A stretch of DNA of 64,000 bases from Natronobacterium gregoryi SP2 (GTDB lineage: Archaea > Halobacteriota > Halobacteria > Halobacteriales > Natrialbaceae): assembly GCF_000230715.2 (NCBI RefSeq), contig NC_019792.1:2170001-2234000 (forward strand), given 5' to 3'. The first letter of the stretch is position 1. The number at the start of each line of letters is the position of its first letter. Of this stretch, positions 6,733-52,539 are shown one piece after another. The notes beneath the pieces are model-generated. The model ran no database searches. It saw only the letters and a list, made by a program, of their open reading frames with translations, and was not told the origin of the DNA. The position numbers and the translations under genes were made by a program.

Positions 6733-6793
6733 ACCGCCGATTGCCAGAACGGGGTCGGCGATCGGCGGTAAATAGTTACAGCAATCCGTCTCA
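6709..6793. repeat. R1 palindromic repeat, copy with a distinct inner hairpin
   Basis: The left arm TCATACGGCTTGCTGTA and right arm TACAGCAATCCGTCTCA are near-inverted. The inner stem (TTACCGCCGATTGCC with GGCGATCGGCGGTAA) differs completely from that of other copies but still pairs. It shares its last TCA with the next copy, so two R1 units lie head to tail. Confidence 0.75.
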
Positions 6794-6877
6794 TACGGTT
6801 TGCTGTCTGTCAGTTCCGGCGCGTCCGCGAGTCCGCCTGCGGTCGCACCGGTACATCGGGACAGCAGCCCGTCTCAC
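6791..6877. repeat. R1 palindromic repeat copy
   Basis: The left arm TCATACGGTTTGCTGTC and right arm GACAGCAGCCCGTCTCA are near-inverted, with a GC-rich inner stem. The right end supplies the TGA stop (reverse strand, 6874-6876) of the adjacent gene. Confidence 0.8.
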
Positions 6878-7212
6878 TCGTCGATCTCGGGCCACTCGCT
6901 CGAGTCTCCCGGACGGTACGGAATCGTCGCCTCCGGTCCGTACAGCAGCAGTCCGAGCTGACTCGTCTCGGCCCTGATCTCTCGACAGCGACGTCGAGCC
7001 TCCCGGTGCGTCTCCTGAGAACGAGGTTTGCCCCCGATCTCCGCCGACGGGTCGTGGAGCCGCTCGAGCATCGCGTCCGTGAGTCGCTCGAGGGTCTCGA
7101 GGGCGTCACGGATCGAATTCACGTCGGCGGGGGGTCTAGGGGTATAGTTGTCTGGCGTCGGTACGTTCCGCCGGACGGGAGTTTTAGCATCCCGCGAATC
7201 GTCGTTCGACAT
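6874..7212 (-). CDS. small conserved protein of the duplicated two-gene module, copy 1
   Basis: 112 residues, no recognised domain. The N-terminus (SNDDSRDAKTP...) is variable and probably disordered. The middle is helical (LETLERLTDAMLERLHDP), then a basic helix (EARRRCREIRAE), ending LLLYGPEATIPYRPGD. From about residue 38 to the end it is identical to the paralogue at 7961-8296; a diverged third copy lies at 51550-51918. A winged-helix gene is divergent from it in all three places. Its stop codon is part of an R1 repeat. A role as partner or effector of the neighbouring regulator is inference. Confidence 0.7.
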   Translation of the reverse strand: MSNDDSRDAKTPVRRNVPTPDNYTPRPPADVNSIRDALETLERLTDAMLERLHDPSAEIGGKPRSQETHREARRRCREIRAETSQLGLLLYGPEATIPYRPGDSSEWPEIDE

Positions 7213-7339
7213 GGCTTCCAGGCTGGTTGCGGAAGCTTCTCGCGGACTCGGTGGTTAGGTCCCTGGGTCCGCGATTTTGCGACTCCACTACCGAGCGAGC
7301 CGCGCATAGCGTCCGTGTCAGGTGATAATGATCTGCTTT

Positions 7340-7386
7340 GATATAAATTCTACTACGAACGTAGTTTTTAGAGGACTACGTACGTT
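7340..7386. promoter_or_regulatory. TATA box and palindromic operator candidates of module copy 1
   Basis: GATATAAA (7340-7347) is followed at once by a perfect inverted repeat, ACTACGAACGTAGT (7352-7365), and a related palindrome, ACTACGTACGTT (7375-7386). The site lies between the two divergent genes and is AT-rich compared with its surroundings. It would suit autoregulation by the winged-helix protein. Confidence 0.45.
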
Positions 7387-7446: not shown

Positions 7447-7713
7447 ATGGTTGAGCGGGTTCCCTGGATGGCTCCTGTCGACTACGAGATCATGCTTTTC
7501 TTCGACGAGCACGCGATACAGGTCTCTCCGCGAGTTCTCGCGGCGAACATCGGGTACGACCGCCAGTACGTGAGCAAACGCTGTCGGACCCTCTCGGAAG
7601 CAAGATTGCTGAACGCCGTCGACACTGGCCTGTATCAACTGACGGAAACCGGAGTGGCATATCTCGAGGGGGAACTCGATGCGGACGACCTCGAGAACGC
7701 CGAACCCGAGTAA
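7447..7713 (+). CDS. winged-helix DNA-binding protein of the two-gene module, copy 1
   Basis: 88 residues, about the size of a single winged-helix domain. WMAPVDYEIMLFFDEH is helix 1, ISPRVLAANIGYDRQYVSKRCRTL covers the recognition helix, and GLYQLTETGVAYLEGELD is the wing and last helix. The same frame (WM.P.D..IL ... Y.L...G.AYL.GE.D) occurs in the proteins at 8513 and 51061. It resembles the phage-repressor-like small wHTH proteins of haloarchaea. It is divergent from the 112-residue gene. Confidence 0.8.
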   Translation: MVERVPWMAPVDYEIMLFFDEHAIQVSPRVLAANIGYDRQYVSKRCRTLSEARLLNAVDTGLYQLTETGVAYLEGELDADDLENAEPE

Positions 7714-7902: not shown

Positions 7903-7964
7903 CCGGCGCGTCCGCGAGTCCTCCTGCGGTCACACCGGTACATCGGGACAGCAGTCCGTCTCAC
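7879..7964. repeat. R1 palindromic repeat copy
   Basis: The arms TCATACGGCTTGCTGTA and GACAGCAGTCCGTCTCA flank a GC-rich inner stem. The right end again supplies the TGA stop of the adjacent minus-strand gene (7961-7963). Confidence 0.8.
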
Positions 7965-8296
7965 TCGTCGATCTCGGGCCACTCGCTCGAGTCTCCCGGA
8001 CGGTACGGAATCGTCGCCTCCGGTCCGTACAGCAGCAGTCCGAGCTGACTCGTCTCGGCCCTGATCTCTCGACAGCGACGTCGAGCCTCCCGGTGCGTCT
8101 CCTGAGAACGAGGTTTGCCCCCGATCTCCGCCGACGGGTCGTGGAGCCGCTCGAGCATCGCGTCCGTGAGCCGCTCGAGGGTCTCGAGAGCCGCACGGAT
8201 CGACTCGGTGTCGTCGAGCGGTGCGGACGTGTCCGCCGGCGTCGATGCGTCCTGTCGGACGGGAGTGTCGGTCTCCCGCGAGTCGTCGTTCGCCAT
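7961..8296 (-). CDS. small conserved protein of the two-gene module, copy 2
   Basis: 111 residues. The C-terminal ~75 residues equal those of the gene at 6874-7212, and about 210 bp of DNA are almost identical. The first ~35 residues share only MxNDDSR and scattered positions. This sharp step in conservation coincides with an unrelated-looking intergenic region and a diverged winged-helix partner. It shows no signal peptide or membrane segment. Confidence 0.7.
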   Translation of the reverse strand: MANDDSRETDTPVRQDASTPADTSAPLDDTESIRAALETLERLTDAMLERLHDPSAEIGGKPRSQETHREARRRCREIRAETSQLGLLLYGPEATIPYRPGDSSEWPEIDE

Positions 8297-8512
8297 GGTT
8301 TCCAGGGTGGACGGAAGCGTTTCGCGGACTGGATTTTGGCCGAGTCCTTTCGGAGCGTACGCGTTGTGCTTGCACTGTCGCTTCCGTATACGTCACCACA
8401 TCTTCAATGCACTTATAGACTAGCGTATTTATGCTAATACTGGATACGGGATGAGCTATTATATCCGGGGACCAGTCCAAATTAATGTTCGTCAGTGGGA
8501 CGACACCGTCGA

Positions 8513-8797
8513 ATGCGTCCTCGGCCAGAGTGGATGTCGTTGAAAGATGGGCTCATCCTCGAGTTCCTCGAAGAGCACGATCTCGAGCTCCCCGCGAAAC
8601 CGCTATACCGGAACCTGAATCGACACGGACACGAGATCGGATACTCGACCGTTCGACAACGATTAGGCGAACTCGAAGACCACGGACTAATCGAGAAAGT
8701 CGACGACGCGGGCTACTACCAGATAAGCCAGAAGGGTCAGGCATATCTTGCGGGAGAAGTGGCTCTCAGCGATCTCGAGACCAACGGCGATGCGTAA
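8513..8797 (+). CDS. winged-helix DNA-binding protein of the two-gene module, copy 2
   Basis: 94 residues from MRPRPEWMSLKDG, a start that aligns with the third copy (MRPRLADWMTPVD); an upstream ATG at 8495 adds six residues. It has a helix 1 (LILEFLEEHDLEL), a recognition helix (GYSTVRQRLGELEDHGLI) and a wing (AGYYQISQKGQAYLAGEV). TATA-like AGCTATTATAT lies about 50 bp upstream (8455-8465). It ends 14 bp before the convergent flippase gene. Confidence 0.8.
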   Translation: MRPRPEWMSLKDGLILEFLEEHDLELPAKPLYRNLNRHGHEIGYSTVRQRLGELEDHGLIEKVDDAGYYQISQKGQAYLAGEVALSDLETNGDA

Positions 8798-25321: not shown

Positions 25322-25474
25322 CAGAAAGCTTATTATGGGACGATTATACTCTCCGAGTACCCCTGCCCGGAAGGCCGAGTGGGCGCGCGAAATGGTGTTG
25401 GACGTGCTGATAACGGCCGCCTCCGGTGAACTGCTCGTTAACCAACCCAAGCGAACGAAACTACAACATAACAC
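25322..25474 (+). promoter_or_regulatory. S-layer gene 1 promoter and long conserved 5' leader
   Basis: The core CAGAAAGCTTATTA (BRE plus TATA) is followed by a leader of about 115 nt. The leader shares TACCCCTGCCCGGAAGGC and GCGAACGAAACTACAACA with the second S-layer gene's leader. A long leader is unusual here, since most genes in the window look leaderless. Confidence 0.6.
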
Positions 25475-27895
25475 ATGACAAGCGATCCATCATATCGTGA
25501 AAAGGGACGTGCAGTGTTCCTAGCAGCGATTATGATCGTCTCTGTCTTCGCGATGTCCGCAGCGTTTGCGGGCACCGCGGTGGCAGACGACCCCGAAGAA
25601 GAAACGCTCGAACAGGCATACGACGACCCTGGTCCGGTGTGGGTAGACGGTGACGTCGAAACCGCCTACCTCGGCCAGGAAATCGAGATCGAAGGCGACA
25701 GTCTCGAGGGAGAAAGTTCGGTCATCCTGTACGAAGGCCCAGCCTCCCTCGACGATCCGGACCGAGTAGCCTCGATCCAGATCTACCACGATGAGGATCG
25801 TCACTGGGGCGAGTTCGAAACTGCCGACCTCGAGCCGGACGAAGCCTACCACTTCGCTGCTGGTAGCTCCGAGTTCGACGGCGAAGAGTTCTGGACCGAC
25901 GAAGAAGACCTCGACGTCGAGTTCGACGTCAACACCGTCACCCAGGACGAAGCGGTCGACCTCGAGTTCGACTCTGAACGAGATCTCCAGCATCTCAACG
26001 TCACCAGTGACGACTTCGACGGTGACGAGCTCGACGACATCTTCAGCTACACGGACGGGTGGCAAAACGACTACACTGACGACGTGCTGACGCTCGAGAA
26101 CGTCCCGGCGGACATCGACATCGAGGTCGAGTTCGACGACGTCGATCCCGACGAGTACGAGTTCGAGTTCGAGACGACCGACTCCTTTGCGTGGGACAAC
26201 GCGTCGATCGAAGTCGTCGACGACGACGCATCCGTCGACTTCGCCGACGACATCGGTGGCGAGCGCGGTGACGTGGTCGATATCCCGATCGAACTCGAGC
26301 ACGTCCAGACCGGTGCCGTCCAGATCGGCGACTACGACGACGACAACTTCCAGGCTGCCGCCCAGTTCGACGTGGACGACTACAGCGCTGACGAGATCAC
26401 GCTGCAGTTCGATACGTACGCGCCGAACGAGGGTGAGGACTCCTGGTCCGTCCACCCTGACGACGAAGACGAGTACGACGTCGAGATCCTCGAGGCCGAG
26501 ACGTCGATCAACTTCGACGAAGGCGAGGCACTCGGCGTGCACGACTACGAGATCATCGCTGGCACGTCCTACGACGACGAAGGAGAGCACGCAGCCGTCG
26601 AGGACGACTCCGAGACGGACACGAACTTCTTCAGTGTCTTCGAGCCGGAGCCGGTCAGTGACGTCGACTTCGAGATCGCGCCGGCTGGCACCGACCTCGG
26701 TGACTACGAGGAATACGACGAGGCACACACGACGTCTTCGTCCGACGTCGCCTTCCACGACGAACTCGTCGTTACTCTCGAGGACTTCGGCATGTCCGGT
26801 GCCGTCGACGCTATGAGCGACGACGACGTCGGTGCGATGCTCGAGGATGCAGGTATGAACCTCACTCTCGAGGAGCAAGACCCTGGTCCGAACGTCGACG
26901 CGATCGTCTGGTCGACTGCGTCCGACGACGAGGACGCGGACTACGAGATCGACGTGACTGCGGTTTACACCGATCTCGAGGACTACGACGGTGACCTCGT
27001 TGCGACGATCGACTACGCCGACGCCGAGGCGTTCGACGAAGGTGGCTACGACCTGACACTCGAGGTCACCGAAGACAGCATGTTCGCTGACGACGAGGAC
27101 GAGGAGATGGAGATCGAGAGTTCCTTCGAGGTTCTCGAGCCGGAGCTCGACCTCCACCCGGACAACGACGAAGTGCCGAACAGCGACGACGCTGAAGTGA
27201 CGGGGACGACGACGGTCGCGCCCGGTAGCGAGATCAGTACGAGTGCGTCGTCGGCCGGTAACTTCACCGACGGTGCCGATGCGGTTGTCGACGCGGACGG
27301 GACGTTCACTGCTGTCTACGACTTCAGCGAGTACGAGGCTGGCGTCGACTTCGAACTCGAGGCCGAGCACGACGACCGTTCGGAGTTCGAGGACTACGCT
27401 GACGACCTCGAGGACGACATGGATGCTGTGTTGGTCGACGCTGAGGACCCGTTGATCAACCTCGATGCGACCGCGCCCGGTGAGGTCGAGCCTGGCGAGG
27501 ATGCTGCGCTCGATGTGACTGTTAGTAACGATGGTGGCGCGTCCGACGATGTCGACGTGGTTGTCACGATCGATGGCGAGGAACTCGAGAACGAGACGGT
27601 CACTCTCGATGCTGGTGACGAGTGGAGCGAGAGCTTCGAGTTCGACACCGCCGAGGAAGCGGACATCGATTGGGAGGTCACTGCTGGTGAGGAGGCTGAC
27701 AGTGACACGGTGACTGTCGTGGCACAAGAGGAGCCTGACGACGAGGATGCTGACGACGAGGATGCTGTCGACGATGGCGCTGGTGACGACGACGAGGAGC
27801 CTGCCGATGACGACGAGACGCCTGGCTTCGGTGTTGCCGTTGCTGTCGTCGCTCTGCTGGCTGCAGCCATGCTGGCGCTGCGTCGTCAGGAGTAA
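25475..27895 (+). CDS. S-layer glycoprotein, paralogue 1 (PGF-CTERM)
   Basis: 806 residues, very acidic. The N-terminal signal peptide (AVFLAAIMIVSVFAMSAAFAG) is followed by GPVWVDGDVETAYLGQEIEI, the start of the haloarchaeal S-layer domain. Several N-X-S/T sequons are present (e.g. LNVTSDD, WDNASIE, MNLTLEE, GNFTDGA) as AglB targets. It ends with an Asp/Glu-rich linker, TPGFGVAVAVVALLAAAMLALRR, a PGF-CTERM sorting signal processed by archaeosortase ArtA with lipid anchoring. It should form the cell-surface lattice. A hairpin terminator follows the stop. Confidence 0.9.
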   Translation: MTSDPSYREKGRAVFLAAIMIVSVFAMSAAFAGTAVADDPEEETLEQAYDDPGPVWVDGDVETAYLGQEIEIEGDSLEGESSVILYEGPASLDDPDRVASIQIYHDEDRHWGEFETADLEPDEAYHFAAGSSEFDGEEFWTDEEDLDVEFDVNTVTQDEAVDLEFDSERDLQHLNVTSDDFDGDELDDIFSYTDGWQNDYTDDVLTLENVPADIDIEVEFDDVDPDEYEFEFETTDSFAWDNASIEVVDDDASVDFADDIGGERGDVVDIPIELEHVQTGAVQIGDYDDDNFQAAAQFDVDDYSADEITLQFDTYAPNEGEDSWSVHPDDEDEYDVEILEAETSINFDEGEALGVHDYEIIAGTSYDDEGEHAAVEDDSETDTNFFSVFEPEPVSDVDFEIAPAGTDLGDYEEYDEAHTTSSSDVAFHDELVVTLEDFGMSGAVDAMSDDDVGAMLEDAGMNLTLEEQDPGPNVDAIVWSTASDDEDADYEIDVTAVYTDLEDYDGDLVATIDYADAEAFDEGGYDLTLEVTEDSMFADDEDEEMEIESSFEVLEPELDLHPDNDEVPNSDDAEVTGTTTVAPGSEISTSASSAGNFTDGADAVVDADGTFTAVYDFSEYEAGVDFELEAEHDDRSEFEDYADDLEDDMDAVLVDAEDPLINLDATAPGEVEPGEDAALDVTVSNDGGASDDVDVVVTIDGEELENETVTLDAGDEWSESFEFDTAEEADIDWEVTAGEEADSDTVTVVAQEEPDDEDADDEDAVDDGAGDDDEEPADDDETPGFGVAVAVVALLAAAMLALRRQE

Positions 27896-27899
27896 CTAA

Positions 27900-27941
27900 C
27901 TGAATCACGCGGTTCAGTTTCTGCGGCAGTTCGTATTTTTT
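27900..27941 (+). terminator. hairpin plus T-run after S-layer gene 1
   Basis: CTGAATCACGCGGTTCAG forms a short stem three bases after the stop, and a T-rich run (ATTTTTT) follows within 25 bp. The same arrangement follows the second S-layer gene. Confidence 0.6.
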
Positions 27942-28197
27942 CGACGCTGGTCACGCTCGGGAGCGGCTGCTGGCGGTCGCAATCGGCGGTCGTAATCAGT
28001 TGTTGTCGACTGGTGATCCAGGTATTGACTCGAGGATCGCCCTGACGTGTTTGTGACGTGATATCACTGGTCGTTGGTAATCCGGGGGTTTTGACCAGAT
28101 CCCAAAACCGGCGCTTTGTCGTCTGAAAGGCCGAGTAATCGCTAATTACGCTTGGGAAAACGTATGTTGAAATCGTACCGATCGCTGATGTATCAGA

Positions 28198-28357
28198 CAG
28201 AAAGCTTATTACGGGGTAGGGTCTTGCTTCGGATACCCCTACCCGGAAGGCTGTGTCGGCTTGCGACGATGTGCGGGTCGTGCCGATAACGGTCGCTTCC
28301 GATCTGATCGCGCGATAACCAACCTAAGCGAACGAAACTACAACACAAACACAACAC
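28198..28357 (+). promoter_or_regulatory. S-layer gene 2 promoter and long conserved 5' leader
   Basis: The core CAGAAAGCTTATTA is identical to that of S-layer gene 1. The leader of about 120 nt has TACCCCTACCCGGAAGGC and GCGAACGAAACTACAACA in the same order. A self-complementary stretch (GGGGTAGGG ... CCCCTACCC) could form a hairpin near the 5' end. Confidence 0.6.
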
Positions 28358-31303
28358 ATGACAAGCGAACCTTCATATCGTGAAAAGGGACGCGCAGTGT
28401 TCCTGGCAGCGATTATGATCGTCTCTGTCTTCGGGATGTCCGCAGCGTTTGCGGGCACCGCGGCGGCATACGATGGTGATTTCGATGATGACGATGCCTT
28501 CGAAATCACTATCGAAGACGACACGATTGACGCAGATGAAGAGGTAACGACCACGGTTACAGTTGATGTTCTCGATCACGGGGATGTTGACGAGGGTGAA
28601 GTCGAAGAAATCGACATCAACAACCCATCTGAGGGTGACGATGCCGGCGTTCAGAGCCCCGACTTCGATGCTGGGACTGAAGAGCTCGACGTAACTCTCA
28701 ACCCCGATGGTGACGAGAGTAACTTCGACCTTACTGTCACCGTTGCCGCTGAGGACGATGGCGATCACGATGAAGACTTTGTAGAAGAACTGCCGATCAC
28801 CGTCGAAGAACCTGACACAGTCGACGACACGCAGGAATACGACGATGACGGTCCTGTCTGGGTCGATGGCGAGGACGGCCCCGTCTACATCGGACAGGAA
28901 GTCACGATCGTGTCCGAAGAATTCGCAGAGCAGACTAATGGCGACACTGCAGACGACGTCAGTGCTGTCATCCTCTACGAAGGTCCGGAAAGCCTTGACG
29001 AGGATGACCGAACTCACGTGACGTCGATCGAAATTCAGGACGACGACGACTATAAGCACCCATACGGTGAGTTCGAAACCGACGACCTCGAGCCAGGCGA
29101 AGCCTACCACTTCCACATCGGCGGCGAAGGTCACTACGCCTTCGACGGTGAGGAGTTCTGGACTGACGAGGAAGACCTCGATGCTGATTTCGGCGTCAAC
29201 ACTGTCCCACAGGATGACACTGCCGAAATCGAGTTCGAGAGCGAACGTGACGACATGTTCCTCAACGTCACCAGCGAAGACGTCGACGGTGACGACCTCG
29301 AGGACTACGTCGAGAGCACGTCCGACATCGACGAGTACGAAGCCTACACTGACGATGTCCTGACGCTCGAGGGCGTCGACGACGGTGCCGAACTCGAGAT
29401 CGACTTCGATGAGTTCGACACTGGTACCTACGAGTTCGAGTTCGAATCCACCGACTCGTTCGCGTGGGATAACGCGACGGTCGAAGTCACCGATGAAGAC
29501 ACCGGTGTCTACTTCGCCGACGATCCGATGGGCGAACAGGGTGACATGATCGAGATCGTGCTCGAACCCGAGCACACCGAAGAAGGTGCTGTTCAGGTCG
29601 GTAACTGGGAGGACGACTACTACCAGTCCACTGTCGAATTCGAAATCGACACTGCCGACGCTGACGAAATCGTGCTCCTGTTCGACACGGACGACCCAGA
29701 AGATCCCTGGAACGTCCCTGAAGAGTACGAAGACGATTACGATCTCGACACTCCTAACGATGCAACCTTCACCGGTTGGGATACCGACGACGAAGACGTC
29801 CTCGGTGTCTACGACTACGAGATGACCTCCGGCACCTCGTACGAGAGTCTCGACTACGGCGATGATGATGATAACGTGCCGGCGAGCTCGGGAGATGCTC
29901 CGTCCGAGGCGGACGGCGATGGTGACTTCGCTACCGTCGCAGAAGACGACGAAACTGACACGACGTTCCTCCGTGTGACCGAACCCGAAACGATCTCGGA
30001 CGTCACGCTGGAACGAGCGCCACACGACACTGACTTCGACGACGCCGACGACCTCGAGGAAGCCTACGAGGACGACCTCGTCACGGAGGATGACGTCGTC
30101 GCTCACGGTGACGAACTGCTCCTGATCCTCGAAGACTTCGGCATGTCCGGTGCTGTCGACGACGAGAACGACGCCACCGCCATCTTCGAGGACGCCGGCA
30201 TGAACGTCACCATCGAGGAAGAAGACCCTGGTCCAAACCAGGACGCAGCCTGGTGGACGACCTACGAAGTCGCTAAGCATCTCGATGACTACGAAGGAGA
30301 CGACCACTCTGACAACGATGTCGCGCAGCTAGAGACCAGCAACGTCATCCAGGACTTCAACGAGTACGACGGTGACCTCGTGCTCCAGATCGACTACGAA
30401 GATATGGACATGCCTGGTGACCGCTCGGCTGACGACGACGCCGAAGGCCTTGACTTCGGTGAATACGAGATTACCTTCGAGGCAACCGACGACAGCATCT
30501 TCGTCGACGACGACGAGGACGCTATCGAGTTCACGACCGAGTTCGACCTCGAGGAGCCCGAACTCGACCTTCACCCGGACAACGACGAAGTGCCAAACAG
30601 TGACTCGGCTGAAGTGACCGGCACGTCCAACATCGCGCCTGGTGCAGAGATCGGCACTGACGCGGCTTCGGAAGGTAACTTCACCGACTCCGAAGACACG
30701 ATCGTCGACGCCGACGGCACCTTCACCGCTGTCTACGACTTCACCGAGTACGACGCTGCCACGCCGTTCGAACTCGATGCTGAAGCCGACGAAACCACCT
30801 ACGACGACCGCGGTGACGCCGAGGACGACATGGACGCCGTCCTCGTCGCCGCTGAGGACCCACTGATCAACTTCGACGCGGCCGCACCCGGTGATGTCGA
30901 GCCTGGTGACGCTGCCTCGCTCGACGTGACCGTCAGCAACGACGGTGGAGCCTCCGACGATGTCGACGTCACCGTCACGATCGACGGCGACGACGTCACG
31001 GACGAGACCATCACCGTCGACGCAGGTGACGAGTGGAGCGAGAGCTTCGACTTCGACACCGCTGACGAAGCTGACATCGACTGGGACGTCACTGTCGACG
31101 ACGAATCCGACAGTGGCACTCTGACCGTCGCCGAGGAAGAGGACCCTGTCGATGAAGACGAGGACCCCGTCGATGAAGACGAGGACCCTGAAGACGAAGA
31201 GGAAGAACCCGCCGATGACGACGAGACGCCCGGCTTCGGTGTCGCCGTCGCCGTCGTCGCTCTGCTCGCCGCAGCCATGCTCGCGCTGCGCCGACAGAAC
31301 TAA
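28358..31303 (+). CDS. S-layer glycoprotein, paralogue 2 (PGF-CTERM)
   Basis: 981 residues, very acidic. Signal peptide and first ~35 residues are nearly identical to paralogue 1. It then carries an additional ~130-residue beta-rich domain before the shared S-layer domain (GPVWVDGEDGPVYIGQEVTI). Sequons include LNVTSED, WDNATVE, MNVTIEE and GNFTDSE. It ends with a DEDPVDEDEDP repeat and the PGF-CTERM signal TPGFGVAVAVVALLAAAML. The strong similarity at both ends suggests tandem duplication followed by divergence or gene conversion. It could be an alternative or co-assembled lattice protein. Confidence 0.9.
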   Translation: MTSEPSYREKGRAVFLAAIMIVSVFGMSAAFAGTAAAYDGDFDDDDAFEITIEDDTIDADEEVTTTVTVDVLDHGDVDEGEVEEIDINNPSEGDDAGVQSPDFDAGTEELDVTLNPDGDESNFDLTVTVAAEDDGDHDEDFVEELPITVEEPDTVDDTQEYDDDGPVWVDGEDGPVYIGQEVTIVSEEFAEQTNGDTADDVSAVILYEGPESLDEDDRTHVTSIEIQDDDDYKHPYGEFETDDLEPGEAYHFHIGGEGHYAFDGEEFWTDEEDLDADFGVNTVPQDDTAEIEFESERDDMFLNVTSEDVDGDDLEDYVESTSDIDEYEAYTDDVLTLEGVDDGAELEIDFDEFDTGTYEFEFESTDSFAWDNATVEVTDEDTGVYFADDPMGEQGDMIEIVLEPEHTEEGAVQVGNWEDDYYQSTVEFEIDTADADEIVLLFDTDDPEDPWNVPEEYEDDYDLDTPNDATFTGWDTDDEDVLGVYDYEMTSGTSYESLDYGDDDDNVPASSGDAPSEADGDGDFATVAEDDETDTTFLRVTEPETISDVTLERAPHDTDFDDADDLEEAYEDDLVTEDDVVAHGDELLLILEDFGMSGAVDDENDATAIFEDAGMNVTIEEEDPGPNQDAAWWTTYEVAKHLDDYEGDDHSDNDVAQLETSNVIQDFNEYDGDLVLQIDYEDMDMPGDRSADDDAEGLDFGEYEITFEATDDSIFVDDDEDAIEFTTEFDLEEPELDLHPDNDEVPNSDSAEVTGTSNIAPGAEIGTDAASEGNFTDSEDTIVDADGTFTAVYDFTEYDAATPFELDAEADETTYDDRGDAEDDMDAVLVAAEDPLINFDAAAPGDVEPGDAASLDVTVSNDGGASDDVDVTVTIDGDDVTDETITVDAGDEWSESFDFDTADEADIDWDVTVDDESDSGTLTVAEEEDPVDEDEDPVDEDEDPEDEEEEPADDDETPGFGVAVAVVALLAAAMLALRRQN

Positions 31304-31307
31304 CTGA

Positions 31308-31351
31308 CTGAACCAGCCGGTTCAGTTTCCGCCGCAGTTCGCTTTTCTTTC
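31308..31351 (+). terminator. hairpin plus T-rich run after S-layer gene 2
   Basis: CTGAACCAGCCGGTTCAG is a perfect 7-bp stem with a 4-base loop, starting four bases after the stop; GCTTTTCTTT follows about 15 bp later. Confidence 0.65.
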
Positions 31352-49607: not shown

Positions 49608-49635
49608 GACCGATGGGGGGTTCCGTCGCGCTGCC

Positions 49636-49720
49636 TGAGACGGTTTGCTGTCAGTCAGTGCCGGCGGGCCCGCGAGCCCGCCTGGGGTCGCGCCGGGACG
49701 GCGGGACAGCAGTCCGGATA
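49636..49720. repeat. R1 palindromic repeat copy
   Basis: Arms TGAGACGGTTTGCTGTC and GACAGCAGTCCGGATAG, with a partly degenerate inner stem. It lies in the divergent region between the DCC-family gene and the PD-(D/E)XK-like gene. Confidence 0.8.
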
Positions 49721-49819: not shown

Positions 49820-51058
49820 ATGAGCAGTGCGGCCGGGTCGCTGTCGGAACCGCAGGTACTCGCACACACCAAGCGGCGGCTCTTTCCGGGCGACACGGAC
49901 GGCTCTTATGTCGTCGCCGACACGCAGTTCTCCCAAGACGAGTGGCTTCCTGGAGAGCCAATCGATTCGTCGGTCCGTGATCGACTCGCGCCGTTCAACC
50001 ACGTCCGGATCGGCGGTGGCTACCCCGACCTCGTCGGCGTGGGGAACCTCGAGTCCGAGTTGCTCGCGGTCGACCGACTCGGCGACGAACCGCCGTTGAT
50101 CGCCATCGAGGCGAAAGGATACACGAGCAGCGGCGTCGACACGGAACTCGGGATCGTCCAGGCCTACGATCGGCTCCACGAGGCGAACGCGGCCTACTTC
50201 GCTGCGCCGGTTGGCGTCGTCTCCGAGACGGATCGGACGCTCGCGCGTGAACTCAACGTCGGCGTGCTGGGCGTCGACGCGGCGGGAAACGTCGAGGCGC
50301 TCGAGGTCCCTCGCGTCGTCGGCAATCGAACGACGACCGAGGCGAGGGCGTTGCGGTTCCAGGCTGGGACACAGGGGGTCGCGGACGCCTCCTTTGGCCT
50401 GAACCACCCGAAGAACTACCTCGGATACGTGCTGGCACACTACGCTGACGGCGACACTGCGACGCTGCTGTCGGAGTACAGGGTTGTCAGTGCCGTCGAA
50501 GACGCCAAACGTGGCGCTGCCTTTCTCGGTCTGATCGAGGACGGCCCCAGGGTCGACCTGACGTCGCTCGGCGAGGAGGTAATCCGGTTCGCCACGGCCC
50601 GCTACGGGAGCGTCGAGTCGGCACTCGAGGAGTTCGAACAGTGGCACGGCTCGCCAAAACGGTTCGTCGACCTCGCGCCGGCGTGGGGGCGACTGGCCCG
50701 CAGGGTCGTCTTCGACTACGAAGCGACGGCGCTACTCGTCCGTGAACTGCAGGCGATGGACGACGAGGGAATCACCGAGCCGTCGCTCGTCGACACCGTC
50801 GTCTGGCTCCACGAACACTACCCCTCCTTTACCGTCGAACTGTTCGTTCGTGGCGACGACGACGTTCGCCGGCGCGTCCTGACGAAAGACGGCGAACTGC
50901 GCCGGCCGGCACTCGAGGATGGCGAGGTTTACCACTCGCCGACGGTCTTTCAGCTCAAAGCGATGCTGTACCACGCCGGCATCCTCACGGACCGCGGCGC
51001 AGAGCCGAGCACCCTCGAGCCGACTGCGGACGTCTGGGCGCTGCGAGAGCCGGTGTGA
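49820..51058 (+). CDS. uncharacterised protein with a PD-(D/E)XK nuclease-like N-terminal domain
   Basis: 412 residues. The N-terminal 150 residues have GGGYPDLVGVGNLESELL (Asp70) and, about 27 residues later, PLIAIEAKGYTSSG (Glu97-Ala-Lys99), the spacing of a PD-(D/E)XK active site, followed by GIVQAYDRLHEANAAYFAAP. The middle and C-terminal parts look like winged-helix domains (VDLTSLGEEVIRFA; PTVFQLKAMLYHAGILTDRG). The start MSSAAGS is used; the longer frame passes through an R1 repeat. It is convergent with the winged-helix gene of module copy 3, two bases away. The activity is inferred. Confidence 0.6.
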   Translation: MSSAAGSLSEPQVLAHTKRRLFPGDTDGSYVVADTQFSQDEWLPGEPIDSSVRDRLAPFNHVRIGGGYPDLVGVGNLESELLAVDRLGDEPPLIAIEAKGYTSSGVDTELGIVQAYDRLHEANAAYFAAPVGVVSETDRTLARELNVGVLGVDAAGNVEALEVPRVVGNRTTTEARALRFQAGTQGVADASFGLNHPKNYLGYVLAHYADGDTATLLSEYRVVSAVEDAKRGAAFLGLIEDGPRVDLTSLGEEVIRFATARYGSVESALEEFEQWHGSPKRFVDLAPAWGRLARRVVFDYEATALLVRELQAMDDEGITEPSLVDTVVWLHEHYPSFTVELFVRGDDDVRRRVLTKDGELRRPALEDGEVYHSPTVFQLKAMLYHAGILTDRGAEPSTLEPTADVWALREPV

Positions 51059-51060
51059 GG

Positions 51061-51342
51061 TTAGTCGTCGTCCTCGAGTTCGGTGGCATCGAGTTCGCCT
51101 TCGAGATACGCTCGGCCACGATCCGAGAGCCGGTAGATCCCGCCAGTTTCGTCGTAATACTCGACGAGATCGTGCGTCCGTAGCGACATCAGGTGTTCTC
51201 GGACGGTTTGTCGGCTCCAGTCTGTGTTTTCTGCGATTATCCGAGGTGACAGGACGAGTTCGTGGGCCCCACCCTTGTTGTACAACAACTCGAGGATGTC
51301 CCTGTCGACTGGCGTCATCCAGTCGGCTAACCTCGGACGCAT
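51061..51342 (-). CDS. winged-helix DNA-binding protein of the two-gene module, copy 3
   Basis: 93 residues. WMTPVDRDILELLYNKGG is helix 1, SPRIIAENTDWSRQTVREHLMSLRTHDLV the HTH, and GIYRLSDRGRAYLEGELDATELEDDD the wing and tail; this tail matches those of the copies at 7447 and 8513. It is divergent from the small-protein gene at 51550, with an A+T-rich region (51343-51440) between them. Confidence 0.8.
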   Translation of the reverse strand: MRPRLADWMTPVDRDILELLYNKGGAHELVLSPRIIAENTDWSRQTVREHLMSLRTHDLVEYYDETGGIYRLSDRGRAYLEGELDATELEDDD

Positions 51343-51549
51343 TTTTTCCGACGACGCTCTCTCCCCGTTTGACCATTTTCATCCTATCTCGCGTGCAAAC
51401 AAAATAATTTGAGATACAAACAATGTCGTCGGTACATTTACTTGCCTGGAAACAGATCTGTTTGCCACAGGAACAGTGTAGATCCACTCACCGGCAAACC
51501 AAAGTGTCGGTGGCGTGTCGATCCTCGCCGTTCCAGCAAACCGAAAGTC

Positions 51550-51918
51550 ATGCCGACTGATGATTCACGAGGTCACGAACGCCTCAATCGACAGGCCGTA
51601 TCGACCCGGACCTACCCCGACGGTGGAACCGACGAATCCATCCAAGACCAACTCGAGGCTATCGACCGCCTTACCCGAAGTCTCCTTGCGGATCTTCGAA
51701 CTGGCGAAGCGACGACACTCGAAGACGGAAACGAGGATACTCGCCGAGAGGCGATACGACACGTCCGCGAAATACGGGCAGAGGCGAGCCGCGTCGGACT
51801 GTTGTTGTTCGGCCCCGAGGCAGCAATCCCGTATCGGCCGTCGGACCCGCCACTCGAGTCGGACCGTTCCAGGTCGTCGACCGGGTCCGACTCGGAAGGC
51901 CGCGGCAACGAGGACTGA
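51550..51918 (+). CDS. small conserved protein of the two-gene module, copy 3
   Basis: 122 residues from MPTDDSRG, a start that aligns with the other copies (MSNDDSRD, MANDDSRE). It shares LEAIDRLTRSLLADL, REAIRHVREIRAEASRVGLLLFGPEAAIPYRPSDPP with them but has diverged, and carries an extra Ser/Arg/Asp tail. The R2 repeat starts directly after its TGA. It is divergent from the winged-helix gene at 51061-51342, the same arrangement as at 6.9-8.8 kb. Confidence 0.65.
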   Translation: MPTDDSRGHERLNRQAVSTRTYPDGGTDESIQDQLEAIDRLTRSLLADLRTGEATTLEDGNEDTRREAIRHVREIRAEASRVGLLLFGPEAAIPYRPSDPPLESDRSRSSTGSDSEGRGNED

Positions 51919-52227: not shown

Positions 52228-52539
52228 CTATAGCGACGGCGACGAACCGGTATCGACGGTCGTTCGTTGCTCGTCGGCGGTGACGCCCACCTCCGCAAAC
52301 GAGACGTGAAACTCGCCGTCGGCGGTTTCGACTTCGATCGTTCGATCCGCATACTCGAACTCGAGGCTAGTAAACGCGTCGGAGGCAGCCAACGCGTCGA
52401 GAGCGTCGGGATCGATCGCGTCGTAGAGTGGCTCGAGTTCGACTGGATCGGTGTCGGTTCGTCGAGCGACGTAGTCGATAATTGCCATGCTAAGCCGCCG
52501 GTCTGTGTCTACTACCGCCGTTGCTCGTGAAGCACTCAT
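52228..52539 (-). CDS. HalOD1 output-domain protein
   Basis: 103 residues. LSMAIIDYVARRTDTDPVELEPLYDAIDPDALDAL and LEFEYADRTIEVETADGEFHVSF match the haloarchaeal output domain HalOD1, usually found alone or after a receiver domain. It is thought to act in two-component outputs; the mechanism is unknown. Met at 52488 is an alternative start. Confidence 0.85.
   Translation of the reverse strand: MSASRATAVVDTDRRLSMAIIDYVARRTDTDPVELEPLYDAIDPDALDALAASDAFTSLEFEYADRTIEVETADGEFHVSFAEVGVTADEQRTTVDTGSSPSL

Follow-up and report, generated by a model that had tools for sequence, protein, structure and literature searches.

A covarying 5΄ leader beneath a viral-type repressor in haloarchaea and the virus SNJ2, and its possible role as a translational switch

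We report that a divergent gene pair of Natronobacterium gregoryi SP2 is a diverged member of a widespread haloarchaeal gene-switch module, in which a viral-type repressor faces a divergent gene. The conserved unit of this module consists of the repressor, the divergent promoter, a structured leader and the first ~14 codons of the gene behind it, and the divergent gene itself is interchangeable. The leader, whose helices covary, is our main new result; we found no earlier report of it in the literature, within which the main SNJ2 papers may possibly mention it. The window, namely the whole stretch analysed here, comprises 64,000 nucleotides (contig NC_019792.1, positions 2,170,001 to 2,234,000) and contains three copies of the pair.

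A third, diverged copy of a divergent gene pair

The two open reading frames of copy 3 were located where the original prediction had put them: a winged-helix (wHTH) repressor of 93 aa on the minus strand (W3, 51061..51342), which matches phrog_2440 (E 1.2e-23) and belongs to the family of SNJ2 Orf4, and a small protein (SP) of 122 aa on the plus strand (SP3, 51550..51918, with its ATG at 51550). When SP3 was compared with the whole 3.79-Mb genome, its relatives were SP1 (6874..7212, minus strand; E 1.9e-16, 47% identity) and SP2 (7961..8296, minus strand; E 3.4e-16, 47%), and this search revealed no other SP in the genome. The corresponding search with W3 recovered W1 (7447..7713, plus strand; E 3.8e-12, 43%) and W2 (8495..8797, plus strand; E 6.6e-8, 41%), which match phrog_2440 with E 1.4e-23 and 2.2e-23, respectively, as well as seven more wHTH proteins, all of which were weak matches (best E 7e-4). 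The third copy had been predicted from short shared motifs, and a lack of significant similarity in profile comparison would have counted against it; the matches proved significant for both proteins, and copy 3 is thus a real, diverged member. Copies 1 and 2 arose by recent duplication (97% over 300 nt), and 27 SP relatives share 28-56% identity with SP3. All three pairs are arranged head-to-head. The gene order was therefore kept as predicted. The statement that orientation was kept holds for the divergence alone: in the window, the unit of copy 3 as a whole runs opposite to copies 1 and 2, with its SP on the plus rather than the minus strand.

Copy 3 adjoins, as had been noted, a gene for a D...ExK (PD-(D/E)XK-like) protein of 412 aa (49820..51058, plus strand; motif recognized by eye), which is convergent with W3 and has no match in Pfam, NCBIfam or PADLOC. 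A copy of this gene, 74-82% identical, was present at 16/98 fetched SP loci, and in 15/15 loci with a called SP pair it lay on the wHTH side in convergent orientation. Because the gene stands beside copy 3 in other species too, copy 3 is an old syntenic locus and not a fresh insertion, and the D...ExK protein is a syntenic neighbour outside the switch. The interspersed repeat reported near copy 3 is also present, but it is genome-wide rather than specific to the module: the 14-mer core of this imperfect repeat has 72 exact copies on the chromosome (0 for the reversed control), and within the window the repeat is found at 6779-6874, 7927-7967, 20540, 23409, 24011, 40303, 44254 and 49624-49719. 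Since its core copies are spread over the chromosome, we set the repeat aside as a mobile boundary of copy 3. Elsewhere in the window, a repeat-rich gene region (25430-31350; repeat families D4, D5, D8, D9, D11 and D12) occurs in two long direct copies ~3 kb apart. A further small protein is encoded after SP3 (52228-52539, minus strand), and we take it to resemble a halobacterial output domain protein.

Architecture of the leader

The leader is ~105 nt long and ends in a hairpin within the first 13 codons. From the 5΄ strand TACGGAAGCT, it runs through a variable hairpin (P2) and the P3 hairpin, GCGGACCGGTG...CACCGAGTCCGC, to the strand AGCTCCCGTA, which closes helix P1; a spacer of ~7 nt, the strand TACGGAAGCC and the ATG follow. 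Helix P1 closes a three-way junction holding P2 and P3. Two copies of a 9-mer are possible partners of the AGCTCCCGTA strand: pairing with the upstream copy forms P1, and pairing with the downstream copy forms P4. In nearly all copies, P4 ends immediately 5΄ of the AUG, and the hairpin P5 (CGGGG...CCCCG, codons 7-13) begins at +19. In 106/170 leader copies, a TATA-like hexamer has its start 28-31 bp 5΄ of the first strand (the RNA 5΄ end); such a hexamer is present between -45 and -15 of that end in 134/170 copies, compared with 40/170 between -85 and -55. Given this peak, the transcript should begin near P1.

The three window copies of the leader are in different states. Copy 1 (7210..7317, minus strand; R1 model 61.5 bits, E 2.5e-9) contains P1-P2-P3 with P4 next to the ATG, and its P5 hairpin occupies codons 7-13 of SP1 (7176..7194, minus strand). 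A candidate repressor operator, ACTACGTTCGTAGT (7352..7365), lies just upstream of the SP1 TATA box (about 7341-7348); operator-like palindromes were only modestly enriched in general, with a score of 7 or more in 23% of 161 regions versus 7% of shuffles. Copy 2 (8294..8388, minus strand) is degenerate, scoring 23.7 bits with R1 (E 0.092) and having a fold z-score of -0.73. Copy 3 (51459..51549, plus strand) has a variant closing hairpin (TTTGC../..GCAAA and GGAAC/GTTCC) that scores only 4.9 bits with R1; its RNA fold has a z-score of -3.22, and 1/200 shuffles folded as well. The closing strand does not recur before the ATG, and the alternative P4 fold is accordingly missing; a P5 hairpin lies in codons 7-13 of the SP coding sequence (51568..51586, plus strand) and appears in the minimum-energy fold. 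A possible TATA element, read from the sequence, is located ~24 bp upstream of the closing helix (51435..51442, plus strand). In a same-genus relative of copy 3, the closing strands are kept and the inside of the hairpin differs. With a full, a weak and an altered leader, the genome thus combines one intact, one decaying and one derived form. Judged from these features, the copy 3 leader would be a non-switching derivative with the closing hairpin and P5 only.

Covariation and conservation of the fold

We evaluated the fold with several sets of leaders. The R1 model rests on 24 seed leaders, whose structure we wrote by hand after first drawing it by eye from the same sequences; within this seed, 89.5% of cells pair. 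In A7, comprising 81 matches in loci outside the R1 seed (79 distinct rows) and aligned to the model, which favours the model, 89.0% of cells pair, compared with 79.0% after shuffling and 28-44% with slid partners; two-sided changes occur in 21/27 pairs, and the covariation score is 0.283 versus 0.133 (0/500 shuffles). In the unfitted MAFFT alignment A4 (n = 32), pairing was 88.6% versus 85.4% and the score 0.141 versus 0.095. A strand-swap test on 106 nonredundant leaders found the native strands to be better in 76 leaders for P1, 98 for P2, 90 for P3 and 82 for P4. These results strongly support a fold that covaries and is conserved in the 5΄ leader.

The hairpin within the coding sequence, P5, is present in 165/170 leader copies, compared with 22% of shuffles. 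Here, codon choice and amino-acid changes track the pairing: codon 7 is CGG in 75/75, and pair 23-33 is G-C in 46 and A-T in 16. In P2, 84 G-U pairs stand against 33 A-C mismatches, in other words, a G-U excess. The corresponding ratios were 38:48 in P1 and 33:51 in P3; because they show no such excess, P1 and P3 alone do not prove a role at the RNA level. Unguided RNAalifold on the MAFFT alignment A3 recovered only P5, because P2 varies in length and the alignment is gappy. Single-sequence fold z-scores were modest (-0.7 to -3.2). Rfam searches of 20 loci yielded five weak matches (E 2.1-9.6), none covering the leader at E up to 10.

Distribution of the module and the genes behind the leader

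The SP profile matched 56/391 genomes of the class, all in Natrialbaceae, and 65/125 Natrialbaceae genomes, and the wHTH family was found in 385/391 genomes of the class. R1 leader matches occurred in 97/125 Natrialbaceae genomes and in 140/391 haloarchaeal genomes, the latter comprising 82 in Natrialbaceae and 58 outside. Among the SP-profile matches in the fetched loci and the window, 95/110 had a divergent wHTH, at an SP-wHTH intergenic length of 134-396 bp (median 233; 207-275 bp in 90/95).

We compared the proteins encoded behind 170 distinct leader copies ending at an ATG. Since SP hits had guided the choice of approximately half of the loci, the proportions are biased: the frame behind the ATG was an SP in 93, an Orf3-like PadR protein in 28 and the integrase-leader type in 18; coiled-coil and zinc proteins accounted for 4 each, the C-half of TnpB for 2, single types for 8 and short frames for 13. 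An SNJ2-like integrase was encoded at most 3 kb downstream in 18/18 integrase-leader loci, 12/28 Orf3-like loci and 0/93 SP loci. A start resembling M...SRGLESPDR is common to the SP, Orf3-like, coiled-coil and TnpB types, and its occurrence across unrelated proteins indicates that it belongs to the leader cassette. The 'MxxDDSR' start of SP, which had been listed among the motifs of the small protein, is accordingly part of the cassette and outside the SP domain, a point overlooked at that time.

A divergent wHTH was present at 161/170 leader copies, compared with 3/617 random control positions in the same loci. For SP genes with a leader, a wHTH of this family lies in divergent orientation at most 500 bp away in 91/93; the same family is present at 70/77 non-SP leader loci, among them loci with SNJ2 Orf3, integrase operons or a TnpB C-half behind the leader. 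The claim that three head-to-head pairs show two genes working together therefore holds as regards a module (91/93 versus 3/617), but not as regards a partnership specific to SP.

Two observations concern individual leader loci. At L222 (3121-3885, plus strand) and L248, the leader cassette is in frame with a TnpB-like C-half bearing the TNB zinc domain (PF07282, E 4.9e-9), which is possibly a domesticated TnpB under the same control. At L181, L186, L187, L190 and ~20 related loci, a second element (B) follows the leader (element A) after 150-250 nt. Built on the same principle, it comprises a hairpin, GGTCcCAC..GTGaGACC, immediately 5΄ of an ATG and another, CGGTA..TACCG, in the first codons of a frame of 25-30 aa that ends in an ATGA overlapping the next (integrase) gene.

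Relationship to the virus SNJ2

Like the three window repressors, SNJ2 Orf4 falls in phrog_2440 (E 2.7e-30), and a tblastn search with Orf4 detected the window wHTHs with E 5e-12 to 1e-10, with W3 showing 44% identity (E 6e-12). The leader itself was found in SNJ2 by blastn (76% over 117 nt of the query, E 7e-14), where it sits between the divergent genes gp04 (orf4) and gp03 (orf3) and scores 48.3 bits with R1; the leader of Halorubrum virus Humcor2 scores 44.8 bits. The SNJ2 strands ACGCGAG, CTCGCGT and TACGCGA all differ together from the common TACGGAAGC set. According to the available text of the respective sources, orf1-3 of SNJ2 make up one operon, which has two transcription starts, and its products Orf2 and Orf3 enhance integrase activity (PMC8371274), and orf4-orf10 have been named a lysogeny/lysis regulatory region (PMC13107129). 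Of the orf3-orf2-integrase operon behind the viral leader, the integrase had no tblastn match in the window, where SP stands instead.

The small protein

SP3 consists of the leader-encoded N-terminus, a disordered linker, a two-helix hairpin (residues 31-51 and 62-87) and a C-terminal tail. Its AlphaFold2 model (28 sequences) has a mean pLDDT of 72.6, with values of ~90 or more within the helices and flexible ends. SP had no match in Pfam, NCBIfam, PHROGs or PADLOC, and none in the PDB by sequence (best E 0.52) or by fold (best E 3.7); none of the sequence searches against these collections linked it to a known toxin or defence protein. A weak match of SP1 to the Acb2/Tad1 hairpin (E 0.1) was dropped as chance. 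No match was found in the phage collection, and both the SP profile and a strict pattern failed to match viral contigs; SP matched 6/72,556 plasmid records, and narrow peptide patterns hit a single record among genome contigs. SP-like helical domains were also seen within longer proteins (L092:4626-5960 and L086:4647-5624, both on the minus strand, L110 and L112), two of which carry a zinc-finger-like stretch. We consider it probable that SP serves the module as an effector or partner and has been kept by the host, possibly with a role in immunity to related viruses.

A proposed RNA switch and its alternatives

P1 and P4 are mutually exclusive, their median overlap being 7 nt. With standard parameters at 37 C, not molar KCl, the median difference in free energy between them came to 0.34 kcal/mol (quartiles -1.95 and 2.93), and the two states lay within 3 kcal/mol of each other in 60/106 leaders. 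Being mutually exclusive and nearly iso-energetic, they should render the leader bistable, and from these computed energies we infer switching between P1 and P4. We propose that the divergent pair represents the control region of an integrative element of the SNJ2 type (pleolipovirus-like), which would have become separated from the virus and been put to new use by the host. The Orf4-family wHTH would repress the promoter that it faces, forming the transcriptional layer, and the transcript from that promoter would start at the structured leader. The 3΄ strand of P1 could then re-pair with a second copy of the P1 5΄ strand just before the AUG to form P4, which would alter ribosome access to the AUG, while the P1 state would set the other expression level. 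The result would be a translational switch beneath a transcriptional repressor; behind it would lie the Orf3 or integrase operon in viruses and integrated elements and, in Natrialbaceae, mostly SP with no integrase nearby. We hold this explanation as a whole, namely an SNJ2-type lysogeny-control module reused by the host and equipped with a translational RNA switch, with moderate confidence.

Two other explanations account for the leader without switching. It might be a constitutive translation or stability element that exposes the AUG between P4 and P5; the positions of P4, right at the AUG, and of P5, from +19 in nearly all copies, suit this reading, as does the loss of P4 in copy 3 and its same-genus relative, in which the SP frame is still open. 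However, compensatory changes preserve P1, which vies with P4 for one strand at a small energy difference, and a constitutive element would not need so precise a competitor, which leads us to regard this reading as somewhat unlikely. Alternatively, the three 9-mers could be DNA operator half-sites at and after the transcription start, bound by the wHTH or the downstream protein, with the RNA fold being incidental. That they change together in SNJ2, as sites of one DNA-binding protein would, that P1 and P3 lack a G-U excess and that a DNA-binding protein accompanies the element in 161/170 cases are all consistent with operators. Nevertheless, P2 and P3 vary in sequence with the pairing kept, which operators need not do; the 84 G-U pairs against 33 A-C mismatches in P2 and the constraint of P5 on codon choice within the coding sequence also argue against half-sites, and copy 1 has a separate candidate palindrome upstream of its TATA box. 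We therefore consider the operator reading to be unlikely.

Other explanations concern the gene pair. A toxin-antitoxin or defence pair, with SP as a toxic or defensive effector and the wHTH as an antitoxin-repressor, would agree with a small divergent gene pair in scattered, repeated copies and with its patchy presence (65/125 genomes). Typical toxin-antitoxin pairs are co-transcribed, whereas SP and the wHTH are divergent; moreover, the wHTH also faces non-SP cargo, and SP had no PADLOC, Pfam or NCBIfam match, so that this explanation appears very unlikely. We give least credence to an ordinary divergent regulator and target gene conserved through recent spread only: although copies 1 and 2 were duplicated recently (97% over 300 nt), the SP relatives are diverged (27 at 28-56% identity to copy 3), and both the spacing (207-275 bp in 90/95) and the pairing have been kept.

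Beyond the reused lysogeny-control module favoured above, the results may point to a class of natural RNA switch that is new and that haloarchaea share with their viruses. Its bistable leader of ~105 nt, reaching into the first 13 codons beneath a viral-type repressor, would control a lysogeny or recombination operon; as a portable cassette, it would also have come to precede unrelated genes, among which that for a small protein of the host is the most frequent. We advance this generalization tentatively, as a proposition for which the chances fall a little short of even.

Significance and comparison with known systems

Most haloarchaeal mRNAs lack a leader: in Haloferax volcanii, 72% of protein-coding transcripts are leaderless, and the available text of the same study judges translational control via structured leaders not to be typical there (PMC4983044). 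The available text of a 2021 paper names a single natural archaeal riboswitch with experimental proof, the fluoride one (PMC8241225). If our proposal is true, the leader would be one of few RNA switches in archaea, and lysogeny would be controlled in two layers, at the DNA and at the RNA. Given its presence in 140/391 haloarchaeal genomes and in the tractable virus SNJ2, control of archaeal lysogeny at the RNA level becomes directly testable, as does start selection on leadered haloarchaeal mRNAs. In addition, an unexplained gene pair becomes a named, searchable module.

The module resembles the orf4 / orf3-orf2-int control region of SNJ2 (Betapleolipovirus) in its Orf4-family repressor, divergent promoter, leader and type of first codons. 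Unlike SNJ2, it has SP in place of Orf3, no integrase within 3 kb at any of the 93 SP leaders and, in window copy 3, a changed leader, and SP was absent from the searched phage and viral collections. The leader is also similar to bistable translational riboswitches and leader switches, in which one strand has two exclusive partners, one of them beside the start codon. In contrast to bistable riboswitches, the haloarchaeal leader is without a known ligand, a clear Shine-Dalgarno sequence in the sequestered strand or an Rfam match (20 loci), and its structure runs on into codons 7-13. The fluoride riboswitch of Thermococcus kodakarensis belongs to another organism and has a known ligand (fluoride) and, according to the available text on it, is likewise a leader at the 5΄ end of a natural archaeal mRNA, with a presumed effect on translation (PMC8241225).
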